Assembly (NCBI RefSeq): GCF_030848575.1
Contig: NZ_JAVDDX010000001.1
Location: 992,001 to 1,056,000, forward strand
From: Haloarcula sp. H-GB4
GTDB lineage: Archaea > Halobacteriota > Halobacteria > Halobacteriales > Haloarculaceae
DNA: 64,000 nucleotides
Reading direction: 5' to 3'
Position numbers and translations under genes: made by a program. A model generated the notes under the pieces. That model made no database searches and was not told where the DNA came from. It saw only the letters and a list, made by a program, of their open reading frames with translations. Below are positions 15,008-20,236 of the stretch, piece by piece. Within the stretch, counting starts at the first letter, position 1; every line of letters starts with the position of its first letter.

Positions 15008-16231
15008 TCAGGTCGCTTCGTCACGTCGCTTCTCAGAAGGCTGTCGCCGCCACTGTGGCGTTTCGAGGAGGAGTCGGAGCGGCCAAATGACGTAGTACAG
15101 CGGATGCAGCGGGCCGGGGAGCGGGCGAAACTGGTACTCCGAGTAGGTCGGGTGAAGTGACGAATGTAACAGCAGGAGCGGCAACAGCGCTGTCATCGAA
15201 TCGCTGGCAGCCAGATAAAACCGAGCGGCTTCGAACTGTGTGGGCGCCTCTGGCGTCCCAGCGGCCAGCGACTCAACGACGGTTTCGGCTAATTCGGACA
15301 CGCGGCTGTCCGTACGAAGGCGGTCCAGTAGCGGCGCTGGGAGGGTGTACCCGAAGACAGCACGGGCAAGCGCGGCCCCAAGCAGTAGATTACGCTCGAC
15401 GCCAGTTTTTTGCGCCCGAGCGAGGACGTGTGACCAGTCGGCGTCTGTCGACTCCAGTGCCGCAACGAAATCACAGAGCCACTTCAGGAGATACCAGCGG
15501 TGCTTGGTTCCGTGGAACGCTAACACGAGCAGCCGATCTGGCTGTGCAAGTGCTGGAAGCGGTTGGCCGCCGACCGCTATGGTGTCGCGGCGGTCCCAGA
15601 GTTCACTGAACGGGATGGAGAACGGTCGCTCGGCATCGCCCACGCGCCAGCGAAGTTCCACGTCGAACTCCGGACCACGCATCTCGTACTCGTGAACGAT
15701 TGCCTTCGTCACAGGACCGCCTAACAGCGCGGCGTCATCCAACCGCGGCGTGCCCCCGCGCCACTCATATCCTCGTCCTTCGAGAATATCCGCAGCGGCG
15801 GGGATATCTTCTGGGTGGACGAGCAGATCTAGATCGTTGTACTCACGCACCGTTGCGTCGTCGTAAGCGGCGGCGGACAGCGCCGGCCCCTTGAACGGTA
15901 TCGCACGGACACCACGCTTCTCAAAACTCTCGATTATCTCCTGTAACTCGGTCGTAAACGCGAGATTCCGCATCCGTTTTCCCTGTACGATGCTGCTAAG
16001 TCGTGTCAACACGGCCGCTGGCACGGTGAACTCATCATCACTCTCGCGTGCCATCGCTTCCAGTCCCTCATAGAGGAGTTGCACAACACCGTGATACTGG
16101 GCGAGTGCAACGACGCGGTCCCAGTCTGGCGTCCCATCCACCGCGGGAGGATCGGGGGAAGCGTCGGTGACGACTGCGGTACGAGCACAATCGACGACCA
16201 CCTGAAGTTCGGGTTCAGCCTCCGTCAGCAT
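15008..16231 (-). CDS. Nucleotidyltransferase family protein of the RiPP cluster (lasso NT type)
   Basis: This is a 407-residue protein of the uncharacterised nucleotidyltransferase group (NTP_transf_5). The active-site core is F-K-G-P-A-L-S (Lys114) followed by Y-N-D-L-D-L-L-V, with the D-x-D pair at 133 and 135. A helical C-terminal half contains F-H-G-T-K-H-R-W-Y-L-L-K-W-L-C-D-F. In paeninodin-type lasso clusters the equivalent NT gene works with the peptide kinase to add further phosphate groups to the C-terminal Ser. Its ATG overlaps the end of the kinase gene by 7 bp, so both are surely co-translated. It is the last gene of the leftward cluster. Confidence 0.85.
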   Translation of the reverse strand: MLTEAEPELQVVVDCARTAVVTDASPDPPAVDGTPDWDRVVALAQYHGVVQLLYEGLEAMARESDDEFTVPAAVLTRLSSIVQGKRMRNLAFTTELQEIIESFEKRGVRAIPFKGPALSAAAYDDATVREYNDLDLLVHPEDIPAAADILEGRGYEWRGGTPRLDDAALLGGPVTKAIVHEYEMRGPEFDVELRWRVGDAERPFSIPFSELWDRRDTIAVGGQPLPALAQPDRLLVLAFHGTKHRWYLLKWLCDFVAALESTDADWSHVLARAQKTGVERNLLLGAALARAVFGYTLPAPLLDRLRTDSRVSELAETVVESLAAGTPEAPTQFEAARFYLAASDSMTALLPLLLLHSSLHPTYSEYQFRPLPGPLHPLYYVIWPLRLLLETPQWRRQPSEKRRDEAT

Positions 16232-17139
16232 GAGTCACTCTTGAGATCAGACTGAATCCGGGCTGCGACATCCGGAATCGCATCGAGATTTCGCGGTCGG
16301 CGAAGCCGTTTTATATCAGTCATCTCGACAATCTCTCCGCAGGTGCTGAAATTGGACGCGGCCTGGCCGTCGGCTTCCAGCGCGCCCAGCGTGTATGTAT
16401 TATCCACGAGCGCCATGACCTGCTCGTCCGGCCTGACTGCGTCCACCTCGATTGTCTCGCCGTCTTCGAGCAGGTAAATCCGTTCTAGCGGCACCGGGGT
16501 CGCGGGCTGGTCGTGCCTGAGCCCATAGAAGTGCCGAGGGCGACCGCTGTGGACCTGTTCCGGCGGCTCGACCGGAGGATCAAACACCTCGACCGCCTCC
16601 GGATCGAGTTTCATCGATGGGTAGCCACTTCGGACGACTGGTCCCGCATCGTCCAGCGCTATCGCAGCTACGTCATCGCTCAGGACACGATGTCCGTCGA
16701 GCAGGCAGGCCATCGCAGTTGTCGTTTTTCCGACTCCCGACTCCCCAACGAACGCCACTGCGCGCCCGTCGATGCTGACGGTACTGGCGTGCAGCACGAA
16801 GTAGCCCCGTTGATCCAGCAGGTGGTTCAACGCTGGGCCGACCAGTACGTGGCGGAGGACTTCGCCTGGCACGTCCGAGGCCGGGTCTACAGCGATGGAT
16901 TTCCCGTCGAGAATTCTGACCGTTGCGGCATCGTACAGAAGGTAGTATTCGCGCTCGGTTACCGCGTGAAAGGTTGACCCGGACGCAGCCGATAGTGGGC
17001 GGGGAATCCGTTCCTCAGTGATAGTGACATCAGCCTGCCCGTCAGGCGCTGTCTCAACGGGCGGAAGCTCCGGTACGTCGAAGGCCGAGCGGACTGTCAG
17101 CCCAAAGGCTTCGTACGTGGCTGTGTTTGCTGTCGCCAT
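16225..17139 (-). CDS. HPr kinase-like peptide serine kinase of the RiPP cluster (lasso K type)
   Basis: This is a 304-residue kinase from the ATG at 17139, preceded on its strand by a G-rich GGGGAGG stretch. The N-terminal Y-E-A-F-G-L-T-V-R-S matches the start of the lasso-cluster kinases. The Walker A loop is G-E-S-G-V-G-K-T-T (132-140), L-H-A-S-T lies just before it, and the HprK-type acidic pair is L-S-D-D-V (Asp155/156). Homologues in paeninodin-type clusters phosphorylate the hydroxyl of a C-terminal Ser on the precursor peptide. The precursor found immediately upstream (17374-17472) does end in Ser. It has no HPr substrate nearby and no PTS genes, so a sugar-regulation role is unlikely. 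Confidence 0.87.
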   Translation of the reverse strand: MATANTATYEAFGLTVRSAFDVPELPPVETAPDGQADVTITEERIPRPLSAASGSTFHAVTEREYYLLYDAATVRILDGKSIAVDPASDVPGEVLRHVLVGPALNHLLDQRGYFVLHASTVSIDGRAVAFVGESGVGKTTTAMACLLDGHRVLSDDVAAIALDDAGPVVRSGYPSMKLDPEAVEVFDPPVEPPEQVHSGRPRHFYGLRHDQPATPVPLERIYLLEDGETIEVDAVRPDEQVMALVDNTYTLGALEADGQAASNFSTCGEIVEMTDIKRLRRPRNLDAIPDVAARIQSDLKSDSC

Positions 17140-17373
17140 CCGACTAGTGTCCTCCCCGCATAGTTGTCCATCGATTCCGTCTGTGGTGAGACACACCCCA
17201 GCTACGACACCCCTGGTTCATACCAGACCGCTTGACTGCTGTGGTGGATAAGAATGGACTCTCTACTCCCAGTACACAACCACGAAACCGTCGCAATGTA
17301 TCCACTGAATAGTGCCAGTATCGAGTACTGATAAAAAGAGGAGTCCGCTAGATGTGTGAACAGACTGTGGACG

Positions 17374-17472
17374 CTAGCTCCACTTCCCGTATCCGTCGTC
17401 GTGATCCCACCAGTTCGTCTTTTCTTCGACAGTTCCGTACGTTTCGACCGACGGCGTTTCGTATTCCTTCAT
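17374..17472 (-). CDS. RiPP precursor peptide with lasso-type leader (32 residues)
   Basis: This small gene was found by reading the gap between the B2 and kinase genes. It runs ATG 17472 to TAG 17374 and has GGAGGT five bases before the start codon. The leader has Tyr4, Pro7, Val9, Gly13 and Thr19. That matches the lasso leader pattern Y-xx-P-x-L...G with Thr at position -2, and the spacing is the same as I recall for the lariatin leader. This predicts cleavage after Asn20 and a 12-residue core WWDHDDGYGKWS. The core has Asp at 3, 5 and 6 but none at 7-9, where a lasso ring would close. If cleavage were one or two residues earlier, Asp would fall at 7 or 8. The final Ser32 is the expected kinase target. 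It has no homologue that I can recall. Confidence 0.8.
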   Translation of the reverse strand: MKEYETPSVETYGTVEEKTNWWDHDDGYGKWS

Positions 17473-17477
17473 TGGTT

Positions 17478-17483
17478 ACCTCC
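17478..17483 (-). promoter_or_regulatory. Strong ribosome binding site of the precursor peptide
   Basis: The minus strand reads GGAGGT followed by aacca and ATG. This is a near-perfect anti-SD match with 5-nt spacing. It supports the 32-codon frame as a translated gene, since most haloarchaeal genes lack such a clear site. Confidence 0.8.
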
Positions 17484-17494
17484 ACATCTGCTTT

Positions 17495-17535
17495 CAGGCA
17501 TATATGTATTTGTTATATTATCTATTACTGCTGAA
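17495..17535 (-). promoter_or_regulatory. AT-rich promoter region of the precursor gene
   Basis: The minus strand carries the runs ataatataac and acatatatg in the 90-bp gap after the B2 stop. These are by far the most AT-rich bases of the cluster. A TATA box here would allow the precursor to be transcribed separately and more strongly than B1/B2. The exact TATA cannot be fixed from sequence. Confidence 0.4.
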
Positions 17536-17564
17536 TTTCAACAGAATAGGGTGTTTACTATCCG

Positions 17565-18002
17565 TTAGTCGCGTACTTCGCGTTCCGTGAGTGGTCGGAA
17601 ACGCCCAAAGTCGTCGACATCCCCGATAAGGACATCACCGTTTGACTCGACCCAAGCATGAGCCTCAAACGTATCGGACTGTGTATCCACACCGAAGCGG
17701 AGACAATGTGGCGAATCACTCGCCTTCAGCAATGTACTCCCAGTGAGTGCCCGCTCAAGACAATCATAGGTGCCCGGAAGACACGATCCAGCTGTCGAAA
17801 CCGCCCAGCGTACTGACTCTGGTGATCCAGACTGTCGATGACACGGGAAGAACTGGGAGACTGTGCCGAAACAGCACTCTGCATCCTCCAGCCCGGCGAC
17901 TGTAAGCAGTACTTTGCTCGCAATGATCAGTACCACTGCTTCACAGAGCAATAGCTTCTGCGCCCGTGACAACGCCCTGAACTCACGGAGTCGGGTTCGC
18001 AT
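17565..18002 (-). CDS. Lasso peptide B2-type leader peptidase (transglutaminase-like)
   Basis: This is a 145-residue protein from the ATG at 18002. The larger frame that opens at 18251 only runs through the B1 gene. The N-terminus R-T-R-L-R-E-F-R-A-L-S-R-A-Q-K-L-L-L and a hydrophobic helix (20-37) are typical of B2 proteins. The catalytic Cys81 is in C-L-E-R-A-L, His115 is in A-H-A-W-V-E and Asp128 is in L-I-G-D. B2 cuts the leader from the precursor once B1 has delivered it. It overlaps the end of B1 by 20 bp, so B1 and B2 are translated together, and the precursor gene follows 92 bp downstream. Confidence 0.9.
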   Translation of the reverse strand: MRTRLREFRALSRAQKLLLCEAVVLIIASKVLLTVAGLEDAECCFGTVSQFFPCHRQSGSPESVRWAVSTAGSCLPGTYDCLERALTGSTLLKASDSPHCLRFGVDTQSDTFEAHAWVESNGDVLIGDVDDFGRFRPLTEREVRD

Positions 18003-18279
18003 CGACCTTGATGAGTTGCTCCGCGGCAAGCGTTTCCAGAAAGCGTTCCACATCATTTGCGGCCCGGTTCCTGTCGACATCGTACTCTTTGACCAGCGCC
18101 GAGACGACTGCCGCTGGTTCTGTCGGTTCCTGAATTCGGTCCCAGATGTCCGGGCCGACCCCTGACAGGCCCTGGTACCGTCCCGTCTCGTTGTTGAGCA
18201 ACACGATTTCGCCGTCGATAGTCGTGGTGACGCAGTCGTCAGTTGCGACAACAGTCGATCCGGAATCTATCGCGACCAT
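17983..18279 (-). CDS. PqqD-like leader-binding protein (RRE domain, lasso B1 type)
   Basis: This is a 98-residue single-domain protein. The pattern of three beta strands and helices is visible: V-A-T-D-D-C-V-T-T-T-I-D-G-E-I-V-L-L-N followed by Y-Q-G-L-S-G-V-G-P-D-I-W-D-R-I. It ends with a helical bundle containing V-V-S-A-L-V-K-E-Y-D-V-D. This is the PqqD fold, which binds RiPP leader peptides through strand pairing. It is the first gene of the leftward operon B1-B2-precursor-K-NT. The ABC exporter is divergent, and the two starts are about 150 bp apart. Confidence 0.9.
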   Translation of the reverse strand: MVAIDSGSTVVATDDCVTTTIDGEIVLLNNETGRYQGLSGVGPDIWDRIQEPTEPAAVVSALVKEYDVDRNRAANDVERFLETLAAEQLIKVDANPTP

Positions 18280-18427
18280 ATGGATATCGGCGATACTCGC
18301 ACTATTTGTTATGGCCTCTTTTCGCCTCCATGGTGACTCTGGCTGCCGTTAGACGTGCCCTTCGCTCCCAAACGACCCGGCCGTAGTAAGCCGGTAACTA
18401 TGCCGCATAGAAACCGCATCCTGAACA
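18280..18427. promoter_or_regulatory. Divergent promoter region of the RiPP cluster
   Basis: The 148-bp gap between the B1 start (leftward) and the exporter start (rightward) must hold both promoters. I see no strong TATA box. On the minus strand tagtgcgagt and on the plus strand gtagtaagccgg are weak candidates. No regulator gene lies in the cluster. Confidence 0.35.
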
Positions 18428-20236
18428 ATGGCTACGACTCCTTCCGTCAGTGAAAAATACGCATCGTTGCGCCGCGTAGCGTTGTACCGGCCGGCACTGA
18501 CGGGGAGTATCGTCGCTGCCAGCCTCTTCGTGATGCTACTGGAGGGTGTTGGCCTCTCGTTCCTGTTTCCGATACTCGACGCCGCACAGGCTGGGCAGGG
18601 TCTCCCGCTTCAGGCGGACGGCGTCACCGGCCAATTCCTTTCCGCGTACGCCGCTGCGGGACTCCCGCTCACACTCGAATTTTTGCTGTCCGGTCTCGCG
18701 TTCGTGATGGTTGTCCGATATACAGCGTCGTTTACCGTGAAATGGCTCGCGGCGAAGCTCACACAGACGTACGAACGTGACCTCAAAGACCTGGCCTACG
18801 AACTGGCAATGGGCGCGTCAGTCGGCTACTACGACGACAAAGGGTCCGATGACATCATAAACACGATTCTGACACAGACCCGGTACGCCGGCCGTGTCAT
18901 CGGCCGGATAATCCAGTTCTTCCAGCAGGGAATCCTCTGTCTGGTGTATATCGGAATCGCACTGGCTATCGCTCCGGTGCTAGCAGTCGGTGCGGCTGTC
19001 GCCCTCGGCGGTGTCACGGCAATCATCAGATACGGCATCGAGCCCGGGTACGCTGTTGGCGACCGTGTGGCGACGGCAAACGAACAGCTGCAGGAGACAA
19101 CACAGGCGGGGACGCAAGGTATCCGTGACGTGAAGCTGTTTGGTATGCACGACGGACTGCTTGCTGAGTTCCGGTCCACACTCGACCGGTACACCTCTAC
19201 TAGCGTTGCCGTCCGCCGGAACCAGGTTGCAATCGGAAGCCTCTATCGCCTCTCGGTCTCGCTGCTCCTGTTTGGGCTCGTCTACGTCGCCATCAGTTTT
19301 CGGGCGCTATCTATCGCGGAACTCGGCGTGTTCCTGTTCGCGATGCTCCGACTCGCCCCCCGGCTGAGTTCGCTCAACTCTACCATCTACGCTATCGAGG
19401 GAGAGCTCCCACATCTGGTCCGAACCCACCAGTTCATCGACCGCCTCGAAGCCCAGCAGGAGCCAACTGGCGGGCAGTCGGTCCCAGACCGAATTGGGGA
19501 AATCGCGTTCGAGAACGTCTCGTTCGCCTACGAGGACGAGCCAGTGCTTGCGGACTTCTCGATGGCTGTCGAGCGAGGGGAGTTCGTCGGCATCGTCGGG
19601 GAGTCCGGTGGCGGCAAATCAACAGTTGTCTCGCTGCTCACGCGACTCTATACCCCGGATAGTGGTGATATCCTGGCGAACGGGACGCCGATTTCGGCCT
19701 ATGCCCTTGAGGAATGGCGTGACGCTGTTGCGATGGTTCGACAGGACCCCCACATCTTCAACGATACGTTGCGGTACAACCTCACTGCCGGCCGCGATAT
19801 CTCCGATGAGACGCTCTACGAAGTCGCTGAGAAGGCACTCGTTCTCGAGTTTCTCGATGACCTTCCACAGGGGCTCGACACGGTGTTAGGCGACGATGGC
19901 GTGAAACTCTCCGGCGGACAGCGTCAGCGCGTCGCACTGGCCCGGGCGCTCCTGACCGACGCGGAGGTGCTTGTACTCGATGAAGCCACTAGCGACCTCG
20001 ACTCAAATCTGGAACGGCAAATCCATCGTACTGTCGAGACGCTTGACGGGGACCAGACTGTGATCGCAATCGCCCACCGTCTCTCGACAGTCTCGAACGC
20101 CGACCGAATCTACACTGTTGAGGACGGGCAGGTCACAGAACAGGGTAGCCACGCCGAACTGCTTGACGGCGACGGGACATACGCGGAGCTGTACGCGATG
20201 CAGGGAACGGCAGCCACACAGTCTTCCAGTGGCTAA
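18428..20236 (+). CDS. ABC transporter, fused membrane and ATPase domains (RiPP exporter, lasso D type)
   Basis: This is a 602-residue half-transporter. The membrane domain (about 25-320) has six helices, and the ATPase occupies about 350-590. Walker A is G-E-S-G-G-G-K-S-T, the signature is L-S-G-G-Q-R-Q-R, Walker B is V-L-V-L-D-E-A-T, and the H-loop is I-A-I-A-H-R-L-S. There is no N-terminal C39 peptidase domain, which agrees with leader removal by B1/B2 rather than by the exporter. It resembles McjD-type exporters. It is divergent from the biosynthesis genes and is the only transport gene of the cluster. Given the location, it likely exports the mature peptide and gives self-protection (inference). 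Confidence 0.88.
   Translation: MATTPSVSEKYASLRRVALYRPALTGSIVAASLFVMLLEGVGLSFLFPILDAAQAGQGLPLQADGVTGQFLSAYAAAGLPLTLEFLLSGLAFVMVVRYTASFTVKWLAAKLTQTYERDLKDLAYELAMGASVGYYDDKGSDDIINTILTQTRYAGRVIGRIIQFFQQGILCLVYIGIALAIAPVLAVGAAVALGGVTAIIRYGIEPGYAVGDRVATANEQLQETTQAGTQGIRDVKLFGMHDGLLAEFRSTLDRYTSTSVAVRRNQVAIGSLYRLSVSLLLFGLVYVAISFRALSIAELGVFLFAMLRLAPRLSSLNSTIYAIEGELPHLVRTHQFIDRLEAQQEPTGGQSVPDRIGEIAFENVSFAYEDEPVLADFSMAVERGEFVGIVGESGGGKSTVVSLLTRLYTPDSGDILANGTPISAYALEEWRDAVAMVRQDPHIFNDTLRYNLTAGRDISDETLYEVAEKALVLEFLDDLPQGLDTVLGDDGVKLSGGQRQRVALARALLTDAEVLVLDEATSDLDSNLERQIHRTVETLDGDQTVIAIAHRLSTVSNADRIYTVEDGQVTEQGSHAELLDGDGTYAELYAMQGTAATQSSSG

Follow-up and report, generated by a model that had tools for sequence, protein, structure and literature searches.

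What does a set of lasso-peptide genes produce when the enzyme that closes the ring is missing? This question is raised by a six-gene cluster in the haloarchaeon Haloarcula sp. H-GB4, located at positions 15008-20236 of a 64-kb stretch of contig NZ_JAVDDX010000001.1 (the whole of that stretch is called the window here). Genes for B1, a leader-binding protein, and B2, a leader peptidase, are commonly read as the sign of a lasso peptide. Both are found in this cluster, together with a precursor peptide (A), a kinase (K), a nucleotidyltransferase (NT), and an exporter (D), while the macrolactam cyclase C, which defines lasso peptides, is absent. We consider it likely that the cluster is a working, vertically inherited pathway for a ribosomally synthesized and post-translationally modified peptide (RiPP), assembled from lasso-peptide parts without a lasso cyclase and leading to a linear product. 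The direct observations concern the gene set, the conservation of the precursor and the selection acting on it, the lack of a lasso cyclase in the genomes, and the grouping of the loci in one clade.

Absence of the Lasso Cyclase

Cyclases were surveyed with the Asn_synthase family PF00733 and with the lasso cyclase model NF033535, whose cut-off is 525 bits. The initial annotation, made from the letters of the window, had reported no AsnB-type protein there, and the PF00733 search agrees, with no Asn_synthase protein in the window. The source genome as a whole contains four PF00733 matches: a 637-aa AsnB, a short AsnB-like protein, LarE, and ArgG, the last two identified by the range of the match and by their neighborhood. 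The 637-aa AsnB, located in a glycosyltransferase/glycan locus, reaches 500 bits with the asparagine synthase model (cut-off 267) and 206 bits with that of the lasso cyclase, on which an authentic haloarchaeal C attains 651 bits. Judged by these scores, the best cyclase homologue of the source genome is a true asparagine synthase.

The same holds beyond this strain. None of the 11 Haloarcula genomes carrying the cluster exceeds the NF033535 cut-off, and two of them (G091 and G198) give no match to this model at E ≤ 0.001. Among the 32 Haloarcula genomes the model passes in one only, G395, where a different cluster, one with a cyclase, is found. The AsnB of 630-637 aa is missing from the carriers G091, G198, and G227 (the latter holds a weakly related 598-aa AsnB-like protein) and is found in the cluster-free genomes G125 and G271, so its distribution does not follow the cluster. 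A cyclase encoded elsewhere and always accompanying the cluster, which the initial annotation had named as the case that would overturn its reading, was therefore not encountered; with PF00733 and NF033535, a cyclase at another site in the genome was ruled out. With two opposed cyclases and two precursors in its cluster (L140), G395 is a useful contrast strain within the genus.

A Cyclase-Less Lineage

B2 was detected in 32 of 392 genomes of the order and in 23 of 146 of the family, leaving uncounted three marginal matches under the cut-off (G129, G175, and G261). According to PF00733 matches and annotated neighborhoods, haloarchaeal loci outside the clade described here have a cyclase adjoining B2 or within a few kb of it; one of them, G003, is doubtful, with the order B1-NT-B2 and its closest PF00733 match about 20 kb off. 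The cyclase-less group comprises fifteen loci, namely those of the 11 Haloarcula genomes, G043, G430, G434, and the metagenome-assembled genome G030; the absence of C is less certain in G030 and G434, because these assemblies are incomplete and the cluster is near a contig end. The group forms one clade in four separate maximum-likelihood trees, with ultrafast bootstrap/SH-aLRT supports of 100/99 for K, 99/97 for B2, 100/98 for B1, and 100/99 for NT (G434, in which the precursor was not found, is left out of the K and NT trees). Conserved loss of the cyclase, which a comparison across genera had been proposed to reveal, is thus borne out: from these trees, the absence of the cyclase is a lineage trait, and the gene was lost in the ancestor of a clade that covers two families.

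The gene order ABC<>B1-B2-A-K-NT is retained in 11/11 Haloarcula loci, and the cluster always occupies one chromosomal site, between the same two genes. It is missing in 21 of the 32 genomes of the genus, and in some cluster-free species homologues of the flanking genes are separated by about 0.5 kb. In G230 (L131 3157-5022), NT alone, with an open reading frame, is found at the usual site and the other cluster genes are gone. A plasmid search with B2 gave matches only in Halopiger and Antarctobacter.

Within the clade, the cluster of G430 (L137 9958-12901) contains three paralogous precursors, two of them with ..GYDDGYGDNGGGG.., beside a frameshifted AsnB-type gene bearing Cys2. This gene may be a pseudogene or reflect a sequencing error, or the cluster may have captured an amidotransferase.

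The Precursor Peptide and Its Core

Precursor A (17374..17472, minus strand), recognized by its leader motif, its conservation, and its synonymous codon changes, is a peptide of 32 aa, MKEYETPSVETYGTVEEKTNWWDHDDGYGKWS, with a leader that ends near YETPSVETYGTVEEKTN and a core of about WWDHDDGYGKWS. The leader, YETPSVETYGTVEEKT, is of the lasso type: it matches YxxPxVxxYGxVxxxT and thus has the YxxPx[LV]...T feature of lasso leaders near the cut site. The same 32 aa are encoded in nine of the 11 Haloarcula genomes, and the two others have related versions, one differing at the last residue only. Across the ten near-identical copies, the codon differences are synonymous, the sole amino-acid change being that of the final Ser to Asp, and the ratio of nonsynonymous to synonymous substitution rates (dN/dS) against H. 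salina is 0.06. By these measures precursor A is a real, selected gene. The final residue is Asp in G091 and G227, while G430 and G030 have other ends.

The cores of the clade differ from those of haloarchaeal lasso precursors. In a comparison of 31 cyclase-adjacent precursors with 8 distinct precursors of the cyclase-less clade, the eight-residue ring pattern [NDE]Kx[GS]xxxD was present in 28/31 and 0/8, the GS[IVLTD] tail in 26/31 and 0/8, and DDG(G)YG in none of the 31 and 6 of the 8, respectively, counts that are not independent because the sequences are related. The initial annotation had pointed to the lack of Asp/Glu at ring positions 7-9 as a separate argument. This rule proved non-diagnostic: under the same counting it fails in 16/31 cyclase-bearing precursors, a consequence of the variable leader/core boundary, and it is satisfied in 4/8 cyclase-less ones. 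The better argument, as the motif counts indicate, is that the whole conserved haloarchaeal lasso core motif is lost.

The hydroxyl residues of the core are relevant to the action of K. Ser occurs in the core in nine Haloarcula genomes and in G043, and six of the eight distinct cyclase-less cores have neither Ser nor Thr; the one hydroxyl residue that all eight share is Tyr. Phosphorylation of the peptide, as initially suggested, is therefore doubtful if it is meant to take place on a C-terminal Ser as in paeninodin, since that Ser is not conserved.

A second type of haloarchaeal precursor was observed at L041 14192-14338 (..RHFSRVDGNSGTTGN..) and L046 5912-6046 (..NHFSAVDGNSGTTGN..), accompanied by a second cyclase and a divergent kinase. 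It possibly represents a second archaeal lasso family.

Processing, Tailoring, and Export Genes

All genes of the cluster were confirmed at the positions given in the initial annotation. B1 (17983..18279, minus strand) is a protein of 98 aa, a discrete, PqqD-like RiPP recognition element (RRE). In profile searches it matches the PqqD family PF05402 with E 8.7e-19 and the lasso PqqD model NF033536 with E 5.7e-20 and 71 bits, below the cut-off of 80; in sequence it also matches lasso RREs of solved structure, with E 2.6e-14 for TbiB1 (5v1u).

B2 (17565..18002, minus strand), a transglutaminase-like cysteine leader peptidase of 145 aa, passes the lasso_biosyn_B2 model NF033537 with 80 bits (cut-off 33) and matches PF13471 with E 5.6e-18. 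The catalytic triad proposed for it, Cys81/His115/Asp128, holds for two residues: Cys81 and His115 are conserved in an alignment of 21 relatives, while position 128 is D, E, G, A, Y, or N, and Asp128 was dropped as a catalytic residue. A structural search with the B2 model returned weak cysteine-peptidase/transglutaminase-like matches, none with E ≤ 0.001. No further peptidase gene is found among the window genes between the two genes flanking the cluster.

K (16225..17139, minus strand) has 304 aa when read from its ATG start; an alternative, longer frame with a GTG start extends to 17196. It matches PF07475 (E 2e-6) and HprK structures (E 5e-5) and is HPr-kinase-related, though under the formal model cut-offs. 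Residues H117, K138, D155, and D156 are invariant in 17 aligned sequences, and all four residues of the His-Lys-Asp-Asp motif of paeninodin-type kinases, described in PMC9266682, are thus present.

NT (15008..16231, minus strand) is a nucleotidyltransferase of 407 aa (PF14907, E 1.6e-64, 218 bits) with invariant D133 and D135. In a structural search, its predicted structure (predicted local distance difference test score, pLDDT, 83.6) was closest to the folds of MenT1, LnuA, ANT(2''), and FKRP. The divergent gene D (18428..20236, plus strand), which is the neighbor of B1 in Haloarcula loci, encodes an ATP-binding cassette (ABC) exporter of 602 aa with PF00664 and PF00005 domains. HepA and MsbA models match it under their cut-offs. 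The earlier label, McjD-like, is looser than the data allow, and we describe the protein as a generic MsbA/HepA-type ABC exporter.

Comparison with Known Systems

The cluster shares every gene except C with the paeninodin/pseudomycoidin lasso clusters (A, B1, B2, C, K, N, D), including the kinase His-Lys-Asp-Asp motif and an NT gene adjoining K; it differs from them in the missing C and in a C-terminal Ser that is not conserved. Its closest archaeal relatives are the haloarchaeal cyclase-bearing lasso clusters (e.g., L041, L049, and L140), which have the same leader type, homologous B1 and B2, usually K and the ABC exporter, and often NT. Unlike the Haloarcula cluster, whose core lacks the haloarchaeal lasso precursor pattern, these have C beside B2 or a few kb off, [NDE]Kx[GS]xxxD cores, and GS[IV] tails.

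A precedent for the combination of B1, K, NT, and an exporter without a cyclase, with a proposed linear product, is provided by the linear polyphosphorylated peptides (LPPs) of Bacillota, encoded by lppABKSDN (Popov et al. 2026, PMC13381572). Both systems have an RRE, an HprK-like kinase, an NTP transferase, an MsbA-like exporter, and a YxxPxV-type leader, and both lack a macrolactam cyclase. However, LPPs are from Bacillota only and are associated with a SipW-like (SpI) signal peptidase and the leader YxxPxVLxHQxIxFETxxS, whereas the Haloarcula cluster has the B2 cysteine peptidase and the leader YxxPxVETYG[ST]VEE. The cores differ as well: the LPP core studied has 45 aa, a phosphorylated Ser3, and variable C termini, while those of the cyclase-less haloarchaeal clade have 8-17 aa, are acidic and aromatic, and are nearly invariant in Haloarcula.

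Since the lasso cyclase is absent and neither the LPP peptidase nor the LPP leader motif is found, we file the cluster as a cyclase-less lasso-type RiPP variant. By analogy, it would work like an LPP system built from lasso parts, an archaeal, B2-dependent variant that appears to be new in the open-licence literature. A draft-genome paper reports lasso-type B1, B2, and kinase genes in one Haloarcula strain (PMC10093198); the passage concerned gives no precursor and does not comment on the lack of a cyclase, on how conserved that lack is, or on linearity of the product.

The Proposed Pathway and Its Alternatives

In the pathway that we propose, B1 would bind the YxxPxV leader of the 32-aa precursor. 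The HprK-like K and then NT would decorate the short acidic, aromatic core WWDHDDGYGKWS, B2 would remove the leader near Thr19-Asn20, and the MsbA-like ABC protein would export a linear peptide of 12 residues or similar. The roles assigned to the RRE, B2, K, NT, and the exporter are those of their families and characterized relatives. Because the enzyme that would tie the lasso is lacking throughout the lineage, the peptide is probably left untied and straight; the cut site and the modified residue are tentative assignments of this analysis. The linear product suggested initially thus gains from the conserved absence of the cyclase and loses the ring-position argument; linearity is still something that we infer. 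Tyr is considered only a possible acceptor, because LppK of Bacillota did not phosphorylate a Ser-to-Tyr variant (PMC13381572).

Several points weigh against this reading. The product is a prediction from the genes, the roles of K and NT come from distant relatives, and the residue on which K may act is ambiguous. The Asp residues of the core could serve as ring acceptors if the leader were cut earlier, and a non-homologous cyclase acting in trans could escape our searches. Other proteins of the Asn_synthase fold (the short AsnB, LarE, and ArgG) are widespread and may take part, and the cluster of G430 contains the frameshifted AsnB-type gene.

Some of these points would fit a macrocycle or lasso whose ring is closed in trans, either by an AsnB-type housekeeping enzyme or by some unrelated ligase encoded elsewhere, a reading to which we assign a small probability. 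The Asp residues in the core, the short AsnB, LarE-, and ArgG-type proteins found across Haloarcula, and the Dyadobacter operons described below, with AsnB-type genes elsewhere in the genome, are in line with such closure. Nevertheless, none of the AsnB-type genes shows the same distribution as the cluster (three carriers lack the 630-aa AsnB and non-carriers have it), the lasso-cyclase model passes its cut-off in no carrier, and the core motif of the cyclized haloarchaeal precursors is gone.

It is likewise improbable that, instead of a free peptide, the pathway ends in a peptide serving as carrier or tag, which K and NT would link to a sugar, a lipid, or an envelope polymer and the MsbA-like protein would flip outward. 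The exporter type would suit this role, the NT fold resembles, besides nucleotidyltransferases, the ribitol-phosphate transferase FKRP, PsmN adds hexoses to phospho-Ser (PMC9266682), and capsule loci house LPP clusters (PMC13381572). On the other hand, the stretch read contains no glycan genes beside the Haloarcula cluster, and the similarity of NT to the FKRP fold is weak.

A decaying lasso cluster, drifting after accidental loss of its cyclase, might explain the 21 cluster-free genomes and the lone NT of G230, but it is very improbable and was rejected, since the precursor is almost invariant with nearly all change synonymous, the other cluster genes are under purifying selection (dN/dS 0.07-0.29), K retains its catalytic residues, the cyclase was already lost in the ancestor of the two-family clade, and the absences resemble deletion of the whole locus rather than stepwise decay.

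The near-invariance of the core over about ten species suggests, speculatively, a fixed physiological role rather than an arms race or antibiotic activity; a signal or a metal or envelope ligand are speculative candidates. We also put forward, as an unlikely but defined idea, an undescribed archaeal RiPP class of very short linear peptides with a lasso RRE and B2 and no cyclase, in which K would have shifted from Ser to Tyr (mostly in DDG(G)YG), NT would add a nucleotidyl or sugar-phosphate group, and the peptide would have a conserved role, such as signaling or metal binding, rather than killing.

Significance of the Cluster

For a long evolutionary period, an archaeal clade has retained B1, B2, the kinase, NT, and the exporter while having no enzyme to close the ring. 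Should the product be linear, trimming off the leader and decorating the core would be of use even when no lasso is formed, and the LPPs of Bacillota would have an archaeal counterpart that has kept another type of peptidase. The function of such phosphate/NT-tailored peptides is stated as an open question in PMC13381572, and six genes, a 32-aa precursor, and culturable Haloarcula make a small system in which to ask it. The cluster is also a warning that the label lasso, given from B1 and B2 alone, may misjudge the product.

Related Bacterial Loci and Promoter-Like Elements

Compact B1-B2-K-NT operons are found in Dyadobacter (L108 9701-12489, and also L090, L093, L099, L102, and L111), located between housekeeping genes according to the flanks read in L108 only. 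No cyclase or lasso-type precursor is found near them, and AsnB-type genes occur elsewhere in the genome. These operons are a possible bacterial parallel from their gene content; they are not counted as one here because no lasso-type precursor lies near them. In Spirosoma (L095 and L106), B1-B2 pairs occur without a cyclase, kinase, or recognizable precursor within about 10 kb, and in L107 and L112 B2 stands on its own.

Two promoter-like elements were identified in the cluster by motif count and conservation. The first, (T)ATAACAAATA, is located upstream of precursor A (17507..17516, minus strand), and a second copy of ATAACAAATA is located upstream of B1 (18303..18312, minus strand). The string ATAACAAAT was found twice in the 64-kb window against 0.03 expected, at these two places and nowhere else, which is consistent with shared promoters. 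The element upstream of the precursor is kept in 11 Haloarcula loci and partly in G043, and in most of the other Haloarcula loci read the ATAACA core of the element also precedes B1. The ATAACAAATA element may be a TATA box variant or a regulator site.

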